DNA from: Candidatus Kapaibacterium sp.
GTDB taxonomy: Bacteria; Bacteroidota; Ignavibacteria; Kapaibacteriales; UBA2268
Assembly: GCA_937927515.1 (NCBI GenBank)
Contig: CALBDO010000013.1
Span: 62,001-126,000, forward strand
DNA: 64,000 bases
Direction: 5' to 3'
Shown here: one piece after another, positions 32,548 to 59,516 of the stretch
Numbering within the stretch: the stretch's first letter is position 1
Layout of the letters: each line of letters opens with the position of its first letter
Translations under genes and position numbers: made by a program
The notes under the pieces: model-generated
Databases searched by the model: none
Told to the model about the DNA's origin: nothing
Seen by the model: the letters and a program-made list of their open reading frames with translations, nothing else

Positions 32548-35500
32548 TTACTGAATTGGTAAGGAGTTTTGAATTAACATAAAGTATCGTCTAATAATTT
32601 CCTCGTAATCCCTTGAGTATTTTAATTTAAGTTCATTTAAAAATTGCTCGAATGTTTTTTTATCAATTAACTTTTGGTCGAGTGCTGGCGGAGAATCTTT
32701 TGATAATTCCTTTCCAGGGGTCGATTCTCTACGTTCTTCAAAATCTCTTTCGTAAATGGATTTAGTAGCGTCTAAGAGGCGAGATAAAATTCTCTCTTGC
32801 CTTTTCAATGTTTCGGGCGTTACTTGTCCACTTTGTAGGTCTGAAATGACTTCTTGCATTTCTTGTATGATTTTATTCAAAGAACCTAAAATTCTTGGGT
32901 CTTGTTGTCCAAATTTCTTTTGTTCTTGTGAAAGCTCTTCGAGGGCTTTTTGTGCTCGACCTTGGTCTGCGATTATTCTGGCCAGTTGTGCTTGTTGCTC
33001 GGTAGAAAGTTGTCCTTGATTTGCTAATTGTTGGGACATTTGGTTTATCATCTGCTGGCTCGAGGCAATTTGCTGTAGTCGTTGCATGAAATTAAAGGAG
33101 TTTCCTTTGCCACTTTCGCCCATTCCACCAGGGTTATCGCAAGTGCCTTGATTTTGTAGTTGTGAAAGCATGTCTTGCATTTGAATCGAAGCTTTATTCA
33201 TAGATTTAATGGCTTCGTCTTGGTGCTTTTTGGCATCGGATAAGTTTCTTTTGGCAAGGCTTTCAGTTGCTTTTTGCATCGAGTTCAATGCATTTCCAAT
33301 TTCCCGAGCCATTTCGGGCGTAACAGAAAATGATTTTTGTGATAGTTCAAATAGAGAATTGGCAAGCTCCAACAGCGATTCAGAAATGCTTGCTTGTATC
33401 CTTGCTTGTTCAGTTATCCTCGAGGAGTTGTAGTCTGTGTTTTCTACCTGTTTTTTCAGATTACTTTGTTCCTTAGAGATTGTCATCATATCATTTAATG
33501 CTTTTTCTAATTTTTCAATAGCCTCTTGAGTGACTTTGCTATTTATGTCATCTCGAACTTTTTTCATTTGGTTTGCGAATTTTTTTAATCTTTGTTTTGC
33601 CCTTTCCTGCGATTGACGAGCTTTATTGAAATTACTATTTTTAATAGAGTTTTGGGCATCTTGCATATCTTGGTTCGTTTCTTCGGCAGACAATTCCTCT
33701 TTTGCTTTTTCCAGCTCATCCAATGGCATATCTTTGCCAATTTCTTTCATCAATTCAGAAAGTTTTTGCAACTCATTTTCGATTGTTTTTAAATCGTTTC
33801 TTAGTTGGGATTGTTGTTGAGCCAACTTTTGTTTCAATGCCTCATCATTTGGATTTGTGTTTTCCAATTGCTTTTGCAAGTCTTCTTGCTTACGATAAAG
33901 CTCATCGGCAAGTTTTTGCAATGCGTCGGCTTTTTGTTCAGCTTGAAGTCTTTTAAGAATGTTGATTGTTCGTTCCAAATTTTTTCGAAATTGTTCCTCG
34001 TCGAATTTGTAATTTTCAAGTGCTTTTTTTATTTCCTCGGGGGAAAGCTTCTGCAAAGCCTTTTCAAATTGTTGCTGCAATCTCTTGAGTTCTGGGGAAT
34101 TTACCTCTTGCAATAATTTCTGTAATTCGAGATATTTTTGTAGTGTTTCTGGAGAAAGCAGATTGTTTTCTTGGAATTTTTTGGTTATATCTTCTAAATT
34201 TTTCTGAATTTCAGAGAGCTTATTGCTCAAGTCCTTTTGTTTATTCAAAAGGCTCTCTGCCTTTTTAGTTTCCGACCAGTCGAGCTTCGAGTCGTTTTGA
34301 TTTTTGTTCAATTCTCGGGTAATGTTTTCCATTTCTTTTTTTATTTCGTTTGCCTTCTTCAGCGCATCGTTCAATTCTTTAGTAAGATTTTCATGCGACT
34401 TCTCTGCATCGGCAAGCACTTCTTCCAAAGAAGGGAGCTTAACTCGAATAATCGATGATTTAGAGGACTTGGGCCCACTTATTCTATCATTGTCGTAAAC
34501 CTCTACATAAAATTCGTACTCATCTGCAGGGGAGATTTGAAGTGGGTTTAAATCCCAGATGTATGGGACATTGTTTTCATTTTTATTCGCTGATATTGGA
34601 ATACTAATCGATTTAAAATCACTCCAAGGTTTGGCATAATTAGATTTGCTCAATCTATATCTTAGGTACAAAGCTGTAAAACCATAATCATCAGTTATCC
34701 GTATCATCATTGGTAGCATTCCAACTTCGCTGATTTTAACATCACTTTGAGGTTCTAATAACTGAATCTCTGGGTAAGCATCTTGATAAACACTGATTTG
34801 GTATACAATTGGGTTAACAATTTCAAGATTATTGTAATCCAGTACTTGTATAAAATAGTATCCATTAAAGTTTGCATTGAATTTAGCATTAGCTTTGTTG
34901 TCGGCTACATTCATATTCAAAAAAGTAGTATCAATTTTAAACTGCTCGGTTTCAGTTCTTACTTGTTTGAGAAGGGCAATCTTTGCTGCTTTAAGTTTTT
35001 TATTTGCCAAGAGGGTAATATTGATTTGTGAACCAAACAATACATTTAAGTCCGCATTTTGTTCAGTAAAGTAAATATTAGGTTTTTGTGTATAGCTTGG
35101 GAAATTGATTGTCCCTTGAATTGTTTTAATGATTGGATTATCAATAACAACAACTTCACCTATATCCGAAGTTACCTTCTCAGTTATCCATTCTGCTTCT
35201 GCAAAGAACTTAATCGAATTTTTTATAGATGGAAAGTAGTATGTATAAGTATTCCCCGAGTCGATGTTCAGAGTAATATTTTCGTAATCTTTTTGCTGAA
35301 ATTCTTTAATTTTTAGAGTAATAGTTTGGGGGCTTTTACCTTGACTTTTTACAACTATTTTCACATTATCTCCTTTTTTTACTGTTTCGTATTTTGGATA
35401 GATAGTCAAAGAAAACGGGGGTGGAGGAATAAACGACTTGTTAAAATTTAATATTCGATAGTATGCAAAACCGAATGAATTGAAGAAGATAAAACAAACA

Positions 35501-36021
35501 AGAATGAAAAGAAATGTGGTTAAGATGAATCGGACAAAGGATTTCTGAAACTTCTTTTTATCTATAACTACAGAAAAATCAAGGTCTTTTACTTGTTCTG
35601 AAGTGTCTTCTATACTCTTTGTGATGAATATTTTCGAAACACTTTGGGAGTTGTGAAGTAATGAATACAGCTGTATAGAGTTTGACAATCGGTCTTTGAT
35701 GTTAGGATAATATTTTCCAATATCAAATGCAAGTTTGTCGAGAGAAAGTTTTGTACTACGTGATAACAATACATTCAAATATGGAACGATTAAGACAGAT
35801 AAAGTTGATATTAGAAAAGCTATCTGACTGAAAAACAAAGTAGCTCGAAACGTCTTGTCTCCCTCGAGGATAAGCTCCAACAATGTTATCAAAAAAGCGA
35901 ACAAAACAGTAAAGAAAAGAGAATTGAAGATTGCAGTTGCTAAATCGGTTAAAACCTTAATTTTTCGTACTTGCTTTAATTTTTGAATAACTTTGTGATA
36001 GTTTTTAAATTTTTGCTCCAT
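32548..36021 (-). CDS. DUF4175-family large membrane/coiled-coil protein
   Basis: 1157 residues. Two transmembrane segments near residues 25-85 and a third near 160-185 are followed by beta-rich exported Ig-like domains (about 190-520). From about 540 to 1100 lies a long charged coiled coil very rich in Gln, Glu, Lys and Asn. The layout matches DUF4175 proteins of Bacteroidota. The coiled coil may span the periplasm. The DUF4159 gene precedes it by 7 bases. Function unknown; such genes are often near MoxR/von Willebrand-type genes, which are absent here. Confidence 0.8.
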   Translation of the reverse strand: MEQKFKNYHKVIQKLKQVRKIKVLTDLATAIFNSLFFTVLFAFLITLLELILEGDKTFRATLFFSQIAFLISTLSVLIVPYLNVLLSRSTKLSLDKLAFDIGKYYPNIKDRLSNSIQLYSLLHNSQSVSKIFITKSIEDTSEQVKDLDFSVVIDKKKFQKSFVRFILTTFLFILVCFIFFNSFGFAYYRILNFNKSFIPPPPFSLTIYPKYETVKKGDNVKIVVKSQGKSPQTITLKIKEFQQKDYENITLNIDSGNTYTYYFPSIKNSIKFFAEAEWITEKVTSDIGEVVVIDNPIIKTIQGTINFPSYTQKPNIYFTEQNADLNVLFGSQINITLLANKKLKAAKIALLKQVRTETEQFKIDTTFLNMNVADNKANAKFNANFNGYYFIQVLDYNNLEIVNPIVYQISVYQDAYPEIQLLEPQSDVKISEVGMLPMMIRITDDYGFTALYLRYRLSKSNYAKPWSDFKSISIPISANKNENNVPYIWDLNPLQISPADEYEFYVEVYDNDRISGPKSSKSSIIRVKLPSLEEVLADAEKSHENLTKELNDALKKANEIKKEMENITRELNKNQNDSKLDWSETKKAESLLNKQKDLSNKLSEIQKNLEDITKKFQENNLLSPETLQKYLELQKLLQEVNSPELKRLQQQFEKALQKLSPEEIKKALENYKFDEEQFRKNLERTINILKRLQAEQKADALQKLADELYRKQEDLQKQLENTNPNDEALKQKLAQQQSQLRNDLKTIENELQKLSELMKEIGKDMPLDELEKAKEELSAEETNQDMQDAQNSIKNSNFNKARQSQERAKQRLKKFANQMKKVRDDINSKVTQEAIEKLEKALNDMMTISKEQSNLKKQVENTDYNSSRITEQARIQASISESLLELANSLFELSQKSFSVTPEMAREIGNALNSMQKATESLAKRNLSDAKKHQDEAIKSMNKASIQMQDMLSQLQNQGTCDNPGGMGESGKGNSFNFMQRLQQIASSQQMINQMSQQLANQGQLSTEQQAQLARIIADQGRAQKALEELSQEQKKFGQQDPRILGSLNKIIQEMQEVISDLQSGQVTPETLKRQERILSRLLDATKSIYERDFEERRESTPGKELSKDSPPALDQKLIDKKTFEQFLNELKLKYSRDYEEIIRRYFMLIQNSLPIQ

Positions 36022-36028
36022 AGGATAC

Positions 36029-36757
36029 CTAATTAGTCAAAGCATAAATTAAAATATTTGTTCCCATTTGCAAGGCTTTTTCACGTAATTCTGGTGGGTC
36101 TTTGTGAATATTTGGGTCTGCCCATCCATCTCCTAAATTTGATTCATAAGTGTAAAATACACAAAGCCTACCATTGAGAAAGAGTCCATAGCCAGCTGGA
36201 GGCTTGTTGTCGTGCTCGTGGATTTTGGGCAAGCCTTTATCAAATTTAAAATGAATATGATAAATTGGATGATTGAAAGGCAATTCAACGAATTCTTGGT
36301 CTGGAAAAACTTTTTTCATTTCTCTACGAATGAATTTATCCAAGCCATAGTCATCATCGATGTATAGGAATCCTCCGTTTCTAAGGTAGATTCGAAGATT
36401 TTCAACCTCTCTTTCCGTAAAGTTTACATTTCCATGCCCTGTGAGAAAAATAATAGGGTATGCAAATATGTTTTGGCTTGCCAAGTCTACCCATTCATAG
36501 ACAGGGTCCACGGGTATATTAGTTTTCTCGCCAACATATTTCAAGAGATTGACCTCACTAGATGGGTCATTATACCAATCCCCTCCTCCAGAATATTTCA
36601 CTCTAGCTATTTTAATCTTAGAACTTATTGATGGCTTTTGTGCATGTATTTGTTCTACTACACTCACGAGCACAAATGTGAACGAAAACAAAAGGCTAAT
36701 TCGAAAACTTACATATAATGATTTTTTTCTCTTCTTTTTTGAATTTTTCATAACCAA
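36029..36757 (-). CDS. DUF4159-family exported protein
   Basis: 242 residues (240 from the second ATG). A positively charged N-terminus and hydrophobic segment form a signal peptide (cleavage near IHAQ). A glutamine-amidotransferase-like DUF4159 domain follows: KIARVKYSGGGDWYNDP, IIFLTGHGNVNFTEREVENL and LRNGGFLYIDDDYG near residue 130. The fold resembles class I amidotransferases, but no catalytic cysteine sits at the nucleophile position, which reads LTGHG; it is probably a binding rather than catalytic domain (inference). The start lies 62 bases inside the end of rsmG. Confidence 0.8.
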   Translation of the reverse strand: MVMKNSKKKRKKSLYVSFRISLLFSFTFVLVSVVEQIHAQKPSISSKIKIARVKYSGGGDWYNDPSSEVNLLKYVGEKTNIPVDPVYEWVDLASQNIFAYPIIFLTGHGNVNFTEREVENLRIYLRNGGFLYIDDDYGLDKFIRREMKKVFPDQEFVELPFNHPIYHIHFKFDKGLPKIHEHDNKPPAGYGLFLNGRLCVFYTYESNLGDGWADPNIHKDPPELREKALQMGTNILIYALTN

Positions 36758-51508: not shown

Positions 51509-54433
51509 ATGAGAAAGTTAATTTTACTTTTATTTTTATCGATAAGCAACATACTCCTCTCTCAGTACGAATATCGATTTCTTCCTCCATTAATTGATGC
51601 TGAATTTCATCACAAAAATTCCCTACAAAATATTGTTCGACCAAAGGAATTACCTCCTGCAGACCAATTTGGTAAAGGTCCAGAAAAAATATTAACTCCA
51701 GGTGGATTTCAAATAATTAATATAGTAAATGCTAGCGGTGGACAAACCGAGACATTCATTACACGACACCCATTTAATCCTAATATTATTGTTGCTGCAG
51801 CTAATGATATGAGATACAATTCACCAGCTTCTGGCTATCGAATGGCTAGCTACTATTCAACTGATGGCGGCACAACCTGGACAACCTCGCTTACGCCGAA
51901 AAATGCCGACGTTTTTATTCCAACTCCCTCCTCGGGAGGATTAACCAACGTTGACCCTGGTTTGGCTTTTGATTCTAAAGGAAACCTATATTATTCATAC
52001 ATTGTTGCTCAAGTTAGTAATGATGGCGACATTCAAGACGGAGGCGTATTTTTAAATAAATCAACCGATAACGGAAAAACGTGGAGCCAGCCAATACCAG
52101 TTTCCTACTCAGTAGGTGGTGGAAGCCAACAAGATGCACACGACAAGCCTTTTATTGCTTGTGATGCAAATCAAAATTCTCCGTTCAAAGATAGAATTTA
52201 TGTGACGTGGTTTTTAATTTCGCCTACATCTGGACCTTGCATTGGTTTTGCATACTCAACAAATGGAGAAGAATTTTCTCCAACCACAAAAATACCCGGT
52301 AGTGTTGGTTTGGGAAGTGTACAATCTCCGATGCCAATTGTTGCATCCGATGGTACATTGTATGTTGCTTGGGAAAGCAAAAGCAACAACATCACAACCA
52401 TATATGTACAAAAATCCACAACAGGTGGAACTTCTTGGGCATGGTCGAGCCCCAAGGTTGCGCAAGCAGTTGGCACCATTGGGGAAAAAGTAAATTTGCG
52501 AATGGCTTTGCCAAACAAAGGTAATATGAGGGTTTCATCGCATCCATATTTTTGCCTTGGGGATAGTCCAAATAAGTTATTCCTGGTCCAGGCTGGCAAG
52601 GACGAGAATGGAAAATATAGGATATACTTCGCCAAATCCACAAATGGTGGTGAGACATGGCTCAATAGAATAAGAGTAGACGACAACCCTTATGGTAATG
52701 ATATGTTCTTCCCCGCAATTGCTTACGACCCAACATCGAAAATTCTTGCTGTTGCTTATTACTCATCCCAAATGGATGCTAATAACAAAGCGGTTGATTT
52801 ATTTGTTTCTGTCTCAACAGATGAAGGTGCTACTTGGAAAAGCATTCGAGTCACACCCAATTCCTGGTTCCTCAATCACTCAAATGCTGTCATCGATGCT
52901 GGCGGAGCCTCGCTTGGTAGGTATTGGGGAGATTACCTTTCGATGATTGCTTATGATGGAAAAATCATACCTTGCTTTTGGATGCCAAACTCTCCTCAAG
53001 GAACATTTTATTCAAACAATGCTTACATTGCGATTTTAACCACTTCACCCAAACCGCCCGAAAATTTAACTTACATCAACACATACCAAGAGCCAAATAA
53101 AATTATCCTGAGATGGAAAGACCCAAAAGAAAACCAGTTGGGTGGACCCATCTCTGATTTTAAAATAGCTATTTATAAAGAATCCGCGAAGATTGCAGAA
53201 GTTGCAAAAGGTGTAGAGGAATTTGTATATACTAATTTGCAAGATGGCGAGACTTTTACTTTTGGATTGAAGACTATTGACGACAAAAATATGGAAAGTC
53301 CACTCGTTACTATTTCTGGGGTAGCTGGCGGGGCTTTGCAACCATTCCCGCCATCGATTATCTCTGCCAAACCACACCAAGATGGTGTGTTATTGACATG
53401 GCAAAACCCTGGTTATCATATTGACAGTTCATATTTCCACGATTACGAAACTCTCGAAATCTTTTCTGGTGATGAAAAAGTTTACTCCATTGAAAAAACA
53501 AATCTTATGACTGGTCTTGAACAAACCTTACTTATTCCTCTTCCAACGAAGAAATTTTACAAGTTGAAGATACGCGCTGTTGGTAAAAGGGGCGAGAAGC
53601 AGACACCGAGTGAATTCTCCCCCGCTGTGTTGGCATATTCTGGTGCACCATTGACAACTTTGAGTGAAAACTTTGACGACCTCACCAATTTAATACCTTT
53701 TTATACTGATGGTACAACTGATAAATGGGGCATAACTAATAAAGCTTCGTTCTCGCCACCTAATTCTTTAACCGACTCGCCATTGGGAGATTATAAACCA
53801 AAATCGGAAAACTATGTAATTATCGCCCCCGTTGTTCCAAAGGCTCCCAATTTGTCATTGTCTTTTGAACATATTGCAATAATTGATAGCTCTGGGGATG
53901 TTGGGGTAATTAGCATCTCCAGAGACTTTTGCAAAACTTGGACAGATATTGCTTGGATTGATATGCGACGCTCTTCAGATTTCAAGGATAACGTAGCCGA
54001 TAGTAAATGGTACACCGAAAGCCGCAGTCTTGCTGAGTTTGAAAATGATACTATTTTCATAAAGTTTACACTTATCTCCAACCCTCTGAAAAACAAAGAT
54101 GGTTGGTACATTGATAATCTACGACTGGATAATAGTATAAACAAAGTTGATGAAATTGTAGTAGGCGATAATATCTCTGAATTCGAGGTTTTTCCCAATC
54201 CGTCTAATACATCATCATGGATAAATATCGCGCTTCAAAGACCTTCGACTATTTCAATTGAGATAAGAGATATTTTTGGAAAAGTTATCGATGAAATTGT
54301 CGAATCTACGCATTTGAGTGCTGGAAGATTTAATTTCACCTTGGATTTAGCTGACTATCCCAATGGAATTTTCTTCGTCTATGTAAAGGCAGCATCGGAA
54401 GTTAAAACCAAACCGATTATTGTTATTAAGTGA
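51509..54433 (+). CDS. T9SS cargo protein with Asp-box (BNR) propeller and FN3-like domains
   Basis: 974 residues. A signal peptide (MRKLILLLFLS..., cleavage near LLSQ) is followed by a beta-propeller of about 70-500 with at least five Asp-boxes (STDGGTTW, STDNGKTW, STTGGTSW, STNGGETW, STDEGATW). Two FN3-type domains come next (about 510-700), then a MAM/jelly-roll-like domain (SENFDDLTNLIPFY onwards). A canonical type A T9SS sorting domain closes the protein (FEVFPNPS, then YPNGIFFVYVK). Asp-boxes occur in sialidases, but the catalytic Arg triad and Tyr are not evident, so I would not call it an enzyme. Secreted to the surface. Its end overlaps the following frame. Confidence 0.88.
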   Translation: MRKLILLLFLSISNILLSQYEYRFLPPLIDAEFHHKNSLQNIVRPKELPPADQFGKGPEKILTPGGFQIINIVNASGGQTETFITRHPFNPNIIVAAANDMRYNSPASGYRMASYYSTDGGTTWTTSLTPKNADVFIPTPSSGGLTNVDPGLAFDSKGNLYYSYIVAQVSNDGDIQDGGVFLNKSTDNGKTWSQPIPVSYSVGGGSQQDAHDKPFIACDANQNSPFKDRIYVTWFLISPTSGPCIGFAYSTNGEEFSPTTKIPGSVGLGSVQSPMPIVASDGTLYVAWESKSNNITTIYVQKSTTGGTSWAWSSPKVAQAVGTIGEKVNLRMALPNKGNMRVSSHPYFCLGDSPNKLFLVQAGKDENGKYRIYFAKSTNGGETWLNRIRVDDNPYGNDMFFPAIAYDPTSKILAVAYYSSQMDANNKAVDLFVSVSTDEGATWKSIRVTPNSWFLNHSNAVIDAGGASLGRYWGDYLSMIAYDGKIIPCFWMPNSPQGTFYSNNAYIAILTTSPKPPENLTYINTYQEPNKIILRWKDPKENQLGGPISDFKIAIYKESAKIAEVAKGVEEFVYTNLQDGETFTFGLKTIDDKNMESPLVTISGVAGGALQPFPPSIISAKPHQDGVLLTWQNPGYHIDSSYFHDYETLEIFSGDEKVYSIEKTNLMTGLEQTLLIPLPTKKFYKLKIRAVGKRGEKQTPSEFSPAVLAYSGAPLTTLSENFDDLTNLIPFYTDGTTDKWGITNKASFSPPNSLTDSPLGDYKPKSENYVIIAPVVPKAPNLSLSFEHIAIIDSSGDVGVISISRDFCKTWTDIAWIDMRRSSDFKDNVADSKWYTESRSLAEFENDTIFIKFTLISNPLKNKDGWYIDNLRLDNSINKVDEIVVGDNISEFEVFPNPSNTSSWINIALQRPSTISIEIRDIFGKVIDEIVESTHLSAGRFNFTLDLADYPNGIFFVYVKAASEVKTKPIIVIK

Positions 54434-54443
54434 TAAGTATATT

Positions 54444-55949
54444 TTGAGTTCAAGTAAAACCATTAAAACTACAGGAACAAAGTTTATTAAAATCTATCCA
54501 AGTGTAGAGAAGAAACAATTTCATTTTGCTTCTCTTTCAACTACAACACGTAAATTTCTGCAAAATTTAAAAGATTACCTTCTAAAAGCATTATTTGTTG
54601 AACCGAGGTCACGTGTTGTTGTTGCTGTAAGTGGAGGGGTTGATTCTGTTTCCTTGTTGGATTGCTTATTTTTGCTTCGTTCTGAATTATCTTTGGAGCT
54701 GGCAGTAGCTCATTTAAATCATAAGCTTCGAGGCGAGGAATCGGACGAAGATGAAAGCTTTGTTCAATCATTGGCGGAATACTATTCATTGCCCCTCTTC
54801 TTGCAAAGGATTGATGTAATGAAATATTCAAAAAAATATTCACTTGGAATTGAGGAAACTGCACGTATTGTGAGATATGATTTTCTAAAGAGAGTTGCTC
54901 AATCTTTTGCAGCAAATTTTGTTGCTACAGCACACAATTTAAACGACCAAGCCGAAACTGTGCTCTTAAACATTATAAGAGGAACTGGAATTGCTGGGCT
55001 AAGGGGAATTGCAAATCGAATGGAGCTGTGTAAAAATGTCTTTCTGATAAGACCATTTATAAACCTCAGTAGGACCGATATTGAACAATATGCTTGCGAG
55101 AGAAATTTGCAATGGCGAGAAGACTCGAGCAATCTTATTCTCAAATATACGAGGAACAAAATTCGACATGTGTTAATACCTATTCTTGAGGGAGAATTTA
55201 ATCCAAAGATAGTAAATAATCTTGCAAAACTCTCCGTTATTGCACAGAATAATTATAAAATTGTATCGAGCTACATCAATAAGTTCTTAGAGATGATTTT
55301 AGTGGTCAGAAACAAAAGTGAAGTAGAACTAAATTTGGAAAATCTCACATTATTTGATGATATTCTTTTTAGTGATTTATTTCAGCACATTACAAATACT
55401 TACTTTAATTATACTCTTAGCTTTGCCCAAATTGAGGAGTTGAAAAACCTTGTTCATGCCGAAACAGGAAAATACATTATGCTATCCCAGAGAATTTTTG
55501 TTTATAAAAATCGCCAAACACTCAACTTTATTGCAAGAGATGACGATTTTCATAAACAAGTTGTGAAAAAAATTCCAAAGATTGGGCATGCTATATGGAA
55601 AAGCTTTTTCATAGAATTCGAAGAAATTCACAAAGAGGATTTTCGGACGACCGATGATAAGTTTACGGAATTTTTTGATTATGATAGAATAGAAGATGAA
55701 ATAATTGTTCGGAATTGGAGAGAGGGCGACAAGTTTTCTCCGTTGGGTATGAAAGGGTCGAAAAAATTAAGTGATTTTTTTGTGGATTTAAAAGTGCCTT
55801 TGTATAAAAAAAACGAGTATCCGGTGTTTTTATCCAATAATGAAATATTCTGGGTTGGAGGGCTCAGAATCTCGGATAAATTCAAAGTCACCTCCAAAAC
55901 TACCAGAGTATTGAAAGGTAGATTAATCAAGATAAAATCAAATGAGTAA
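54444..55949 (+). CDS. tilS: tRNA(Ile)-lysidine synthase TilS
   Basis: Converts C34 of the CAU-anticodon Ile tRNA to lysidine so that it reads AUA. About 501 residues: PP-loop AVSGGVDSVSLLD (near residue 55), VAHLNHKLRGEESDED, ATAHNLNDQAETVLLNIIRG (near 150) and RNKIRHVLIPILEGEFNP near 235. A C-terminal substrate domain contains NWREGDKFSPLGMKGSKKLS. No ATG occurs early in the frame, so the start is probably TTG 54444 or another rare codon, which leaves a non-conserved N-terminal tail of about 45 residues. A candidate Ile2 tRNA lies at 49365. It overlaps hpt by 8 bases. Confidence 0.9.
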   Translation: MSSSKTIKTTGTKFIKIYPSVEKKQFHFASLSTTTRKFLQNLKDYLLKALFVEPRSRVVVAVSGGVDSVSLLDCLFLLRSELSLELAVAHLNHKLRGEESDEDESFVQSLAEYYSLPLFLQRIDVMKYSKKYSLGIEETARIVRYDFLKRVAQSFAANFVATAHNLNDQAETVLLNIIRGTGIAGLRGIANRMELCKNVFLIRPFINLSRTDIEQYACERNLQWREDSSNLILKYTRNKIRHVLIPILEGEFNPKIVNNLAKLSVIAQNNYKIVSSYINKFLEMILVVRNKSEVELNLENLTLFDDILFSDLFQHITNTYFNYTLSFAQIEELKNLVHAETGKYIMLSQRIFVYKNRQTLNFIARDDDFHKQVVKKIPKIGHAIWKSFFIEFEEIHKEDFRTTDDKFTEFFDYDRIEDEIIVRNWREGDKFSPLGMKGSKKLSDFFVDLKVPLYKKNEYPVFLSNNEIFWVGGLRISDKFKVTSKTTRVLKGRLIKIKSNE

Positions 55950-56499
55950 TCAAGTTGAATTTGGGAAAAATAATCTTAGAATTTATGACAAGAAATTCAT
56001 AAAATTTATTTCGTATTCTGAAATAAAAAAAAGAACAAAAGTTATCACAGACGAGATTAAGAGAGATTACAAAGGAAAAGAGCCAGTAATTGTTGTAATC
56101 TTAAAAGGAGCAATATTTTTTGCAGCTGAACTGATGAAAAATTTAGATTTCCCGTTGCGTGTGGAAACGTTGAAAGCAAAAAGTTATGGCAATCAGATGA
56201 AGTCCTCGGGCAAGGTTGAATTATTCATTACATGCGAGGATTTGGAGGGAAAAGACATCATTCTTGTCGAAGATATAATTGATACTGGCTTGACAATTTC
56301 AACTGTTGTAAAAGAATTGTTGAATTATAGACCAAATTCAATAAAAATTGCGACATTACTTCTGAAAACAAAGAAATTTAAAGCAGATTTGAAAATTGAT
56401 TATTGTGGATTTGAGATACCTGATAAATTTGTTATTGGTTTTGGTTTGGATTTTGCAGAATTTGGCAGAAATTTAAAACACATTTATATTCTTGAATGA
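55942..56499 (+). CDS. hpt: Hypoxanthine phosphoribosyltransferase
   Basis: Purine salvage enzyme making IMP/GMP from hypoxanthine/guanine and PRPP. 185 residues. The PRPP loop ILVEDIIDTGLTI is near residue 110, the first loop VVILKGAIFFAAEL near 50, and a short flexible loop KAKSYGNQMKSSGKV near 75. tilS-hpt linkage is widespread (often followed by ftsH). Here ribE follows instead. It overlaps tilS by 8 bases. Confidence 0.94.
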   Translation: MSNQVEFGKNNLRIYDKKFIKFISYSEIKKRTKVITDEIKRDYKGKEPVIVVILKGAIFFAAELMKNLDFPLRVETLKAKSYGNQMKSSGKVELFITCEDLEGKDIILVEDIIDTGLTISTVVKELLNYRPNSIKIATLLLKTKKFKADLKIDYCGFEIPDKFVIGFGLDFAEFGRNLKHIYILE

Positions 56500-56506
56500 T
56501 TCTATC

Positions 56507-57145
56507 ATGTTTACTGGAATAATTGAAGAAGTAGCAAGGGTTTCAAAGATTCAAAGAACTGGCAATAGTCTTCGCTTAAGGATTGATGCAAAATTGGTTG
56601 TTAAAAATTTAAAAAGTGGTGATTCTGTCTGCGTTAATGGAGTGTGTTTAACAGTGGTAAATTCTGGCGTGGATTTTTTTGAACTCGATGCAGTCGAAGA
56701 AACTATTAAAAGAACAAATCTCGGTCTCTTGAAAAATGGGGATTATGTCAATCTCGAACGTGCGAGAACTTTTAGCGATAGGATTGATGGACACATTGTG
56801 CAGGGACATATTGATGCAATTGGTAGATTGCTTAGGATAAACTTTTTGCCAAATTCAAAAATATTACTCTTCTCATTTCCGAGGGAATACGAAGAGCTTA
56901 TTGTCCCTAAAGGCTCAATAGCAATCGATGGAATCAGTTTAACTGTTGTCGAAGTAGAAAACGACATCTTTTCTGTGAGTGTTGTTCCTTATACTTTTGA
57001 TAATACAAATTTAAAGTATAAGAAGATAGGTGATGTTGTTAATTTAGAGTTCGACATTTTAGGCAAGTATGTAGTAAATTTTGTTAAACTAACTAAACAA
57101 AGGGACAAATCTATGTTTGACCAGTATTATTCACAACCTGATTAA
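56507..57145 (+). CDS. ribE: Riboflavin synthase, alpha subunit
   Basis: Dismutates two 6,7-dimethyl-8-ribityllumazines to riboflavin. 212 residues with two repeated lumazine-binding domains: MFTGIIEEVARV at the start, DSVCVNGVCLTVV (near residue 43), GHIVQGHIDAIG (near 95), GSIAIDGISLTVV (near 140). ATG 56507 was chosen since MFTGIIE is the universal N-terminus. No FMN riboswitch is seen; the gene is 7 bases after hpt, so it is an operon member. It feeds RibF encoded at 30863. Confidence 0.95.
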   Translation: MFTGIIEEVARVSKIQRTGNSLRLRIDAKLVVKNLKSGDSVCVNGVCLTVVNSGVDFFELDAVEETIKRTNLGLLKNGDYVNLERARTFSDRIDGHIVQGHIDAIGRLLRINFLPNSKILLFSFPREYEELIVPKGSIAIDGISLTVVEVENDIFSVSVVPYTFDNTNLKYKKIGDVVNLEFDILGKYVVNFVKLTKQRDKSMFDQYYSQPD

Positions 57146-57157
57146 TCAGAGGATAAT

Positions 57158-57904
57158 ATGGAACTTGCTTATAAAGAATTAAAAATCAAAAGTAAAATTT
57201 TGGAGAGGGATATTGATTTAAAGATTTTTGGCAAATATGGATTTACGATGCTTGGATTTCCCGCTATGTCTGATGATTTTGATGAAAAAGTGGATTTGGG
57301 GTTTGTCGAGTCTGTTCAAAATTATATTGTCAATGGTCTTTTTCGAGTTGTTTTTTTACCCACTGTTGGAAATAGAATTTGGAAAAATGCAGATATCGAC
57401 TGGAATGAACGCTCCGATTTGCATAGAAAATACAATGGTTTTCTTATGGATGAAGTTTTCCCGAGGTTATTTAGAATAGCTGGGAGTCCATCTCCAATAA
57501 TTACATTTGGATGTGGTGATGCTGGTTTTTTTGCGGCAAATACTTATTTTCGTCATCCAGATATATTATATGGAACCATTGCTATCGATGGCTATTACAA
57601 TTTGCGCTATCTCTGTGGTTTTGATGCTTGGGATGAAAATTGTTATTTTAATTCTCCTATGGACTTTCTTCCTAATTTGGAAGAACAGTATTGGTTGATA
57701 CATTTAAGAGGCAAAAAGCAAGTTCATCTAATTGCTACCGATAGAGAAAATAATGTGCTTTCCATTCAAGAAAATAAAATATTGAGTAATATTTTGACTC
57801 AAAAAGGGATACCTCATAATTTTGAAATCGTCCCTCCAATGGATTCTGATACAGTTCCTAATTGGCATAGAATTTTTCAAAACATTGTCAGTAAATATTT
57901 TTAA
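57158..57904 (+). CDS. Esterase-fold protein lacking the serine nucleophile
   Basis: 248 residues of the alpha/beta-hydrolase 'esterase family' (COG4947-like). The nucleophile elbow, normally GCSMGAY, reads FGCGDAGFFAANTYFRHPD (near residue 120), so Ser is replaced by Gly. The usual C-terminal HDWPWW histidine region reads DTVPNWHRIF, so the expected His also seems to be gone. The fold otherwise looks intact and in frame. It is therefore probably a non-catalytic binding protein (inference). It sits in the ribE-to-S41 operon with short gaps of 12 and 25 bases. Confidence 0.72.
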   Translation: MELAYKELKIKSKILERDIDLKIFGKYGFTMLGFPAMSDDFDEKVDLGFVESVQNYIVNGLFRVVFLPTVGNRIWKNADIDWNERSDLHRKYNGFLMDEVFPRLFRIAGSPSPIITFGCGDAGFFAANTYFRHPDILYGTIAIDGYYNLRYLCGFDAWDENCYFNSPMDFLPNLEEQYWLIHLRGKKQVHLIATDRENNVLSIQENKILSNILTQKGIPHNFEIVPPMDSDTVPNWHRIFQNIVSKYF

Positions 57905-57929: not shown

Positions 57930-59516
57930 ATGAAAAAAAGTTTATTTTACTCAATGTTCTTTTTAATATTCACTATCTATATTTCCTATTCCAACGACTC
58001 TCTAAGCAATATCATCGATATTCAGGCACAGAAATTCCGTGTTCTGTTGGAAACGATAAGCAAAGAATATTATAAAGAAAATGTTGATTTAGTTGGAATT
58101 GCCGAAAATGCATATAATTCTTTGCTTCAATCTTTTGACAAGTTTTCCTCATACTATTCAGCTACTCAATATAAAAGCATTAAAGATGCCTATAAAGGTA
58201 GTGGCAGGGGTATTGGAGTTAACTTTTTCAGACGAGGCGATACTATTATTGTTTTTATGATTGTCAAAGGAAGCCCAGCAGAACAAATGGGGCTGCAATT
58301 AGGCGACAAAGTAATTTATGTTAACCACGATTATTGCATTGGGAAGGATATTAATTATCTTAATAAACGTATTCAAGAGTCATCAAATGATACAGTAATA
58401 TTAACAGTAAAAAGAGATAATTTTTTGAAAGAGTTTGTTTTACCAGTTGCCGAGATTGAGGTACCATCTGTAGTAACAAAGATGAAATTAGAGGGAAATT
58501 TAGGGTATGTTAGAATTCTACGTTTTTCTTTGAAAACTTACTCAGAGCTTATTAGTGCTTTGGATAGTCTACTAAAGGTTGGTAGTAAATCATTAGTGAT
58601 TGATTTACGTGGTAATCAGGGTGGCTATCTTGATGAAGTTATACGTATTTCGAAGGAATTTCTTTCCGAAGGAGATACTGTGGTTTTGGTTTTTGGGAAT
58701 AAAGACAACCGAAAGGTCCATATTTGTGAATCCAATGGCAAGTATAGGAAAATTCCAGTTATTATTTTGGTGGACGAAAACACTGCATCTGGGGGTGAAG
58801 TTTTTGCTTCTTGCATGCAGGACAACGACAGAGCAATTGTTATTGGTACAAGGACATTTGGTAAAGGCTTAGTACAGCGAACTTGGGAATTTAAGGATGG
58901 TTCTGCCTTTCGTTTGACTACTGGGGAATATCTTTCCCCTCTTGGCCGTACCATACAAAAGGAAGACTTAGGCAAATTAGACTTCGATAAAAATATAGAT
59001 GCAAACCTTACTGAGGAACAGAAGGAAAAACTCAAAGAAATGATAAACCAGTTTGGAGCAACTCAAAGGGTTAAAACTTTTTTCACCAATAAAGGTAGAC
59101 TTTTGCTTGGCGGTGGTGGCGTCTTCCCAGATTACTTCTTTATGACTGATACCTTACCTACTTTTTTGAAAAAGATTAAAAGTAGTGGCTTTTTAAATGA
59201 CTTTGTATTACAACATTTTATTGAAAATAAAGTCAATTTTATGACTATCGTTAAATATTCACTTTCGGATTTTATTACTAATTTTAAAATTTCTGACAAT
59301 ACACTTGGGGAATTTAGGCGTTATTTAATTTTGAGAAATGTAATGAATGAAACTCAATTTAACATTGAATTTGACAAAATAGTTCTCGAGATGAAAGCAA
59401 CGCTGGGATATTTACTATTTGGGGACTCGGGCTATTATTCTGTAATAGTACTAAATGATAAAATCATCACCAAAGCAAAGGAACTTAAAATTGAAGCTGA
59501 AAATTTGTTAAAATAG
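57930..59516 (+). CDS. S41-family C-terminal processing protease (CtpA-like)
   Basis: Exported serine protease that trims or degrades periplasmic proteins. 528 residues. An N-terminal signal/anchor (about 1-20) and an N-terminal helical domain are followed by a PDZ domain (about 88-175, VKGSPAEQMGLQLGDKVI). The S41 core has ENTASGGEVFA with Ser287 and GTRTFGKGLVQ with Lys312; the 25-residue Ser-Lys spacing is that of Prc/CtpA. A helical C-terminal domain closes it. ATG 57930 was chosen, as it starts the signal peptide cleanly; an upstream in-frame start overlaps the esterase-like gene. Confidence 0.9.
   Translation: MKKSLFYSMFFLIFTIYISYSNDSLSNIIDIQAQKFRVLLETISKEYYKENVDLVGIAENAYNSLLQSFDKFSSYYSATQYKSIKDAYKGSGRGIGVNFFRRGDTIIVFMIVKGSPAEQMGLQLGDKVIYVNHDYCIGKDINYLNKRIQESSNDTVILTVKRDNFLKEFVLPVAEIEVPSVVTKMKLEGNLGYVRILRFSLKTYSELISALDSLLKVGSKSLVIDLRGNQGGYLDEVIRISKEFLSEGDTVVLVFGNKDNRKVHICESNGKYRKIPVIILVDENTASGGEVFASCMQDNDRAIVIGTRTFGKGLVQRTWEFKDGSAFRLTTGEYLSPLGRTIQKEDLGKLDFDKNIDANLTEEQKEKLKEMINQFGATQRVKTFFTNKGRLLLGGGGVFPDYFFMTDTLPTFLKKIKSSGFLNDFVLQHFIENKVNFMTIVKYSLSDFITNFKISDNTLGEFRRYLILRNVMNETQFNIEFDKIVLEMKATLGYLLFGDSGYYSVIVLNDKIITKAKELKIEAENLLK

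Follow-up and report, generated by a model that had tools for sequence, protein, structure and literature searches.

The window, by which we mean the whole stretch of 64,000 nucleotides analyzed here (C13:62001-126000 of a 2.39 Mb assembly that is 98% complete), contains a gene (57158..57904, + strand) whose 248-amino-acid product, here named X, is probably a pseudo-esterase: it has a predicted alpha/beta-hydrolase fold and lacks the catalytic triad. A previous sequence-only reading had proposed a selected non-catalytic role, perhaps in binding or as a scaffold. Throughout, f1 stands for the family and g1 for the genus to which the window belongs, and G-, g-, and L-numbers are codes for genomes, genera, and loci, respectively. 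By the X protein, the nearest relatives were the Kapabacteria-type MAGs SKW251, Ch6, MS-B_bin-24, and SKW242; MS-B_bin-24 is described as a "Candidatus Thermonerobacter" MAG from Mushroom Spring (PMC6338057). The lineage that carries X is one of hot springs.

Gene Organization Around X

The frame of X starts with ATG and is open over its full length. Directly upstream lies ribE, coding for riboflavin synthase (56492..57145, +), and further upstream are hpt, for hypoxanthine phosphoribosyltransferase (55942..56499, +), and tilS, for tRNA lysidine synthetase (54420..55949, +). The downstream neighbor codes for an S41 C-terminal processing protease (57930..59516, +). Only 12 nt separate the end of ribE (57145) from the start of X, and 25 nt its stop from the S41 ATG at 57930, and both the full-length frame and the tight ribE-X-S41 operon of the earlier reading were therefore confirmed. 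The order hpt-ribE-X-S41 was found in the 5 genomes of g1, and tilS was recognized, within the stretch read, in 4 of them. The genome G003 (MS-B_bin-24) carries a near-identical tilS-hpt-ribE-X-S41 set on two contigs (L064 and L004), which is probably assembly redundancy. The N-terminus of the S41 protein is signal-peptide-like and that of X is not, as read directly from the sequence; X is predicted to be cytosolic. Elsewhere in the window (32548-36757, -), a gene for a DUF4175 protein (1157 aa) lies beside one for a DUF4159 protein, and relatives of both were observed just downstream of the triad-less esterase gene of G062 (L055).

Predicted Fold of X and Assignment of the Triad

The structural models of X (mean pLDDT 95.0, pTM 0.92) and of the intact orthologue from G015 (pLDDT 96.8, pTM 0.93) both matched CE1 feruloyl esterases, S-formylglutathione hydrolases, and antigen 85, and a second structural comparison, run with X only, returned the same groups. 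Matches to the X model included 7xrt_A (Z 21.7), 5vol_D (Z 21.1), and antigen 85C (1dqz_A, Z 19.8). A CE1/antigen-85-type alpha/beta-hydrolase fold is thus confidently predicted for X, and the esterase fold of the sequence-only reading was borne out by the model (pLDDT 95, matches with Z about 20). X shares this fold with the feruloyl esterases BT_4077 and Bacint_04212, S-formylglutathione hydrolase, and antigen 85C, but differs from PF00756 and CE1 esterases in that all three triad positions are gone and in that it gave no match to the PF00756 profile above the curated cut-off. The two intact orthologues scanned did match PF00756 above the cut-off, and 63 of the 75 members of one alignment (A1) matched it at E <= 0.01. 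COG4947, suggested with the sequence-only reading, is a name for this esterase group, to which X may belong. Plain-protein searches of the PDB, including one with X alone, gave no match. The family profile aligned the conserved Ser, Glu, and His with those of the feruloyl esterase Bacint_01033 (6mot/6mou) in two weak stretches; this alignment, together with the fold and the invariance of the three residues, suggests that they are catalytic in the intact members.

Residues at the Former Active Site

From the alignments and the DSSP assignment of the model, the former nucleophile elbow of X was located at G118-C-G-D-A-G123 (57509..57526, +), where Gly120 (codon GGT, 57515..57517, +) replaces the nucleophile Ser of G-x-S-x-G. 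In the alignments, intact orthologues have their nucleophile Ser in the column of residue 120 (S118 in G015, for instance). In the X model, residue 120 is the single turn residue between strand 114-119 and helix 121-132, and the G015 model likewise has a single turn residue between strand 112-117 and helix 119-130. Both models share this strand-turn-helix register, so that neither a shift in register nor a second Ser at the tip of the elbow is seen. An alternative elbow serine, Ser122, was considered and rejected, as it occurs in only 2 of the 5 g1 genomes and lies two residues beyond the tip. The earlier assignment of a Ser-to-Gly replacement in an elbow reading GCGDAG was therefore upheld; the elbow it had expected, GCSMG, was not, since the motif in relatives at the level of the order is G[AV]S[LF]G.

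The other two catalytic residues are missing as well. In the former acid loop (residues 194-203; 57737..57766, +), the Glu of G-x-G-x-x-E-x-P is Leu201 in X, and Asp231 (57848..57850, +) fills the position of the catalytic His. The C-terminal His had already been noted as absent, and to this the loss of the Glu column must be added. Several residues at or beside the active site are invariant in g1 and specific to it, namely R73, C119, G120, G123, and D144. Arg73 (57374..57376, +) is found in 5 of 5 g1 genomes; all 51 proteins from outside the family carry Glu or Asp at this position. Asp144 (57587..57589, +), directly after strand 139-143, takes the place of a Ser present in 51/51 proteins outside the family; this position is Asp in 5/5 g1 genomes and Asn in 7/7 proteins of g14/g17. 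Position 121 is acidic throughout g1 (Glu in 3 genomes, Asp in 2). The N-C-Y-F-N-S-P block (residues 161-167; 57638..57658, +) is kept in both intact and triad-less relatives, N161, C162, Y163, N165, S166, and P167 being retained in 12 of 12 triad-less proteins.

Distribution of the Triad in the Family and the Order

A match to X was detected in 92 of 123 genomes of the order, including 39 of 54 genomes of f1. The alignment comprised a single f1 protein for each genome, 39 in all, together with 51 proteins from other families; 53 genomes had matched outside f1, and two partial matches (G096 and G115) were left out. Also left out of the counts were the second-contig copy of G003, second copies in G037 and G103, and a weak second match in G009, while the divergent orthologue of G007 (g4), in which the Glu column is uncertain, was retained. 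The nucleophile column of the f1 orthologues was occupied by Ser in 17, Ala in 7, and Gly in 15. The complete triad was present in 16 of the 39, G007 having Ser and His with the acid uncertain; 10 had lost the Ser alone (Ala in 7, Gly in 3) and kept His and Glu; and 12 lacked the whole triad (5 from g1 and 7 from g14/g17). Outside f1, Ser, His, and Glu were all present in 51 of 51 proteins of the order. They were also present in 26 of 26 further named sequences, obtained with scan patterns that did not contain the triad; these were the sequences new with respect to the first set among the best 80 of 142 loci found, one of them being a second copy in a counted genome. A first scan of named genomes had given no match.

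All 5 genomes of g1 showed the elbow GCG[DE][AS]G and no His. The Gly is thus fixed in the genus, as the sequence-only reading had asked to be checked, and this agreement rules out that X carries a sequencing error or underwent isolated, recent decay. In the genome of the window, neither a single-sequence search nor a family-profile search detected a close intact paralogue of X, and the profile gave no other match there; two other PF00756 matches are present in this genome. Annotating homologues as "esterase" on the strength of their relatives would mislabel 22 of the 39 f1 members. The gene had no match in 15 of 54 f1 genomes, being apparently dispensable there, and in 16 of 69 genomes outside f1. 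We also observed that no sampled genome of the f1 genera g3, g10, g11, g16, g24 (4/4), g26, and g27 had a match.

Number and Order of the Losses

A tree was built, excluding the elbow and His columns, from the complete set of 39 f1 rows and from 26 of the 51 rows of other families. By parsimony, the Ser state changed 7 times and the His state twice on the best tree. Over 1000 bootstrap trees, 6-8 changes of the Ser state were counted (7 in 905 trees), or 8-11 when only losses were allowed; the parsimony Ser counts hinge on weakly supported nodes, 17 of the 62 inner branches being open. The tree separated g1 from g14/g17, yet the AU test did not reject a single clade (p 0.282), so that an independent double loss of the full triad is not established. 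The stem branch of g1 was long (1.22 changes per column). The Ser was probably lost first, before Glu and His.

Constraint on the Triad-Less Proteins

Across g1, X kept an open frame throughout at pairwise identities of 48-65%, with a mean of 0.552 as compared with 0.589 for ribE, 0.594 for hpt, and 0.579 for S41. Internal stops were absent from 51 of 52 match rows, the remaining one being the weak second match of G009. The dN/dS comparison suggested with the sequence-only reading was informative in part. The sole triad-less pair with unsaturated dS (G034-G063; dS 0.56-0.73), which belongs to another triad-less group and not to g1, gave low ratios of 0.051 (NG86) and 0.035 (YN00). A second triad-less pair, G017-G033, gave 0.048 but at a dS of 1.9. 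Intact pairs ranged from 0.008 to 0.07 outside g25; within g25, the intact Ser-Ser pair gave 0.078/0.091 and the Ser-Ala pairs 0.06-0.11. For g1 itself dS was saturated (NG86 ratios of 0.10-0.29, some undefined; YN00 returned errors on many pairs of this survey), so selection within the genus has to be read from conservation.

We then considered the 60 columns conserved at >=90% in intact proteins, defined on 97 "intact" rows that may include a few near-duplicates. In these columns, 58% of the cells were retained in g1 and 74% in g14/g17, and the 10 proteins that had lost only the Ser mostly retained the other conserved columns. The positions replaced in both triad-less groups (C108, S120, S144, G194, E201, P203, W225, H231, and T235) fell mainly in the nucleophile, acid, and His regions. 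The lower retention in g1 and its long stem branch make it possible that constraint on X was relaxed for part of its history.

A Proposed Non-Hydrolytic Role for X

Taken together, these results make it probable that X is a maintained pseudo-esterase that works without hydrolysis, most likely by holding a ligand or a partner. The proposed selected, non-catalytic role gained support from the genus-wide fixation of the Gly and of the gene order, the flank-like divergence, and the confidently predicted fold. The repeated loss of the key Ser among relatives also suggests that X binds rather than cuts. Judging from its residues, X would have no hydrolase activity. It would descend from a PF00756-type serine esterase that resided in the cytosol and carried a Ser-Glu-His triad. 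In the Kapabacteria family of the window, the nucleophile would have been lost repeatedly while the remaining pocket was kept, and the acid and His loops would have disappeared afterwards in g1 and in one further group. Beneath the retained N-C-Y-F-N-S-P region, X would now hold either a protein partner or a small ligand akin to the former substrate, and might act as a receptor, a carrier, or a regulatory subunit.

An unlikely alternative is that X has acquired, in its former pocket, a different chemistry that needs no serine, as a lyase, cyclase, or isomerase, by means of genus-specific residues such as Arg73, Asp/Glu121, and Asp144. The g1-invariant residues near the active site and the acidic position 121 are in its favor, as is the exchange at position 144, where one triad-less group has acquired Asp and the other Asn. 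There is also a precedent in the plant carboxylesterase-like cyclases, which are reported to have lost ester hydrolysis and to catalyze a [4+2] cyclization (PMC10873640). However, no obvious catalytic group was recognized among the new His, Cys, and acidic residues, as judged without inter-residue distances, and position 121 varies between Asp and Glu.

Slow decay, by which X would be the neutral remnant of an esterase dispensable in f1 and kept by its operon position, appears improbable. The graded series from intact through Ser-less and triad-less proteins to absence of the gene is what it would predict, and the long stem branch of g1 agrees with it. Against it stand the near absence of internal stops, the open frame kept in g1 at the identities given above, the low dN/dS of the triad-less pair with unsaturated dS, and the high confidence of the predicted fold; moreover, the gene is absent at a similar frequency outside the family.

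It is very unlikely that X has remained a hydrolase by shifting its nucleophile to Asp/Glu121 or Cys119. Haloalkane dehalogenases do use an Asp as nucleophile, and C119-G-D/E-x-G123 can be read as a small-x-nucleophile-x-small motif shifted by one residue, but the tip is formed by residue 120, and not by 119 or 121, in both models, position 121 is Glu in 3 of the g1 genomes and Asp in 2, and the base His is missing. Least of all do we expect X to be a structural adaptor of the S41 protease, since, in spite of the adjacency of both genes throughout g1, the protease has a signal-like N-terminus and X does not, and the S41 protein of the window had no match among flanking genes outside g1. The scaffold part of the earlier proposal is thus unlikely for this neighbor, and a binding or regulatory role otherwise remains our reading of X.

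More tentatively, f1 may preserve the stages by which an esterase present in single copy became a non-enzymatic binding protein several times, the Ser giving way to Ala or Gly first, and the loss of the Glu and His loops with a change of Ser144 to Asp or Asn following later; we regard this as possible, though doubtful. If so, binding and not hydrolysis would already have been the selected function in f1, and g1 would have fixed the binding state, adding new pocket residues of its own.

Relation to Known Non-Catalytic Hydrolases

An alpha/beta-hydrolase fold with a disrupted triad, as predicted for X, is known from non-catalytic hydrolases such as MPT51 and GID1. MPT51 (FbpC1) of Mycobacterium tuberculosis, a non-catalytic member of the antigen 85 group, is a secreted, fibronectin-binding protein. 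It has the same fold as the X model (1r88_A; Z 20.0, rmsd 3.0, 223 aligned residues) at 13% identity, a match no better than those with active CE1 enzymes. X differs from MPT51 in its predicted cytosolic location, in its family, and in the additional loss of the acid and the His. GID1, the plant gibberellin receptor, is an alpha/beta hydrolase that passed from enzyme to non-catalytic ligand receptor, retaining Ser and Asp and losing only the His (PMC3531792; PMC10873640). It could serve as a model, by analogy, for how X might work, the likeness being at the level of the fold; X differs from it in lacking all three triad residues. Neuroligins and thyroglobulin are further non-catalytic alpha/beta hydrolases (PMC5943944).

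Non-catalytic alpha/beta hydrolases as such are thus already known, and what seems new is the graded and recurrent loss in this family. In the open-access literature we found neither a description of the family with its stepwise, recurring losses nor anything relevant on pseudoenzymes that arose repeatedly by loss among bacterial alpha/beta hydrolases. Most pseudoenzymes are known only as isolated end points. In f1, intact, Ser-only-lost, and fully triad-less orthologues occur side by side, and intact and Ser-less proteins even within one genus (two Ser and one Ala in g25; one Ser and two Gly in g18). These coexisting states would allow a direct test of whether binding arose before or after the loss of catalysis.

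Pairing of the Esterase Gene With a Thiamine Diphosphokinase Gene

The gene directly upstream of the esterase gene belonged to one and the same cluster in at least 34 of 91 flanking stretches (39 from f1, 51 from other genomes, and the second G003 contig), a lower bound because some cases are masked at the ends of contigs or by a competing frame. This cluster was identified, on two of its members, as thiamine diphosphokinase. The esterases so paired were intact or Ser-less (loci L006, L008, L011, L012, L016, L017, L022, and L023 among them). Within f1 the pair occurred in 14 of 39 genomes; none of these 14 esterases was triad-less, as against 12 of the 25 without the pair, these 12 representing at most two clades. 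In the genome of the window, the kinase gene is on another contig (C7). No report of an esterase-thiamine pyrophosphokinase gene pair was found in the open-access literature. As a lead, this pairing suggests that the intact enzyme may belong to vitamin metabolism, and the pair may point to its original substrate. We also observed that a locus titled Desulfobulbaceae (L131; JAGXRP010000001.1) contains the same esterase and kinase locus as the f1 genome G073, and probably comes from a mislabelled MAG.
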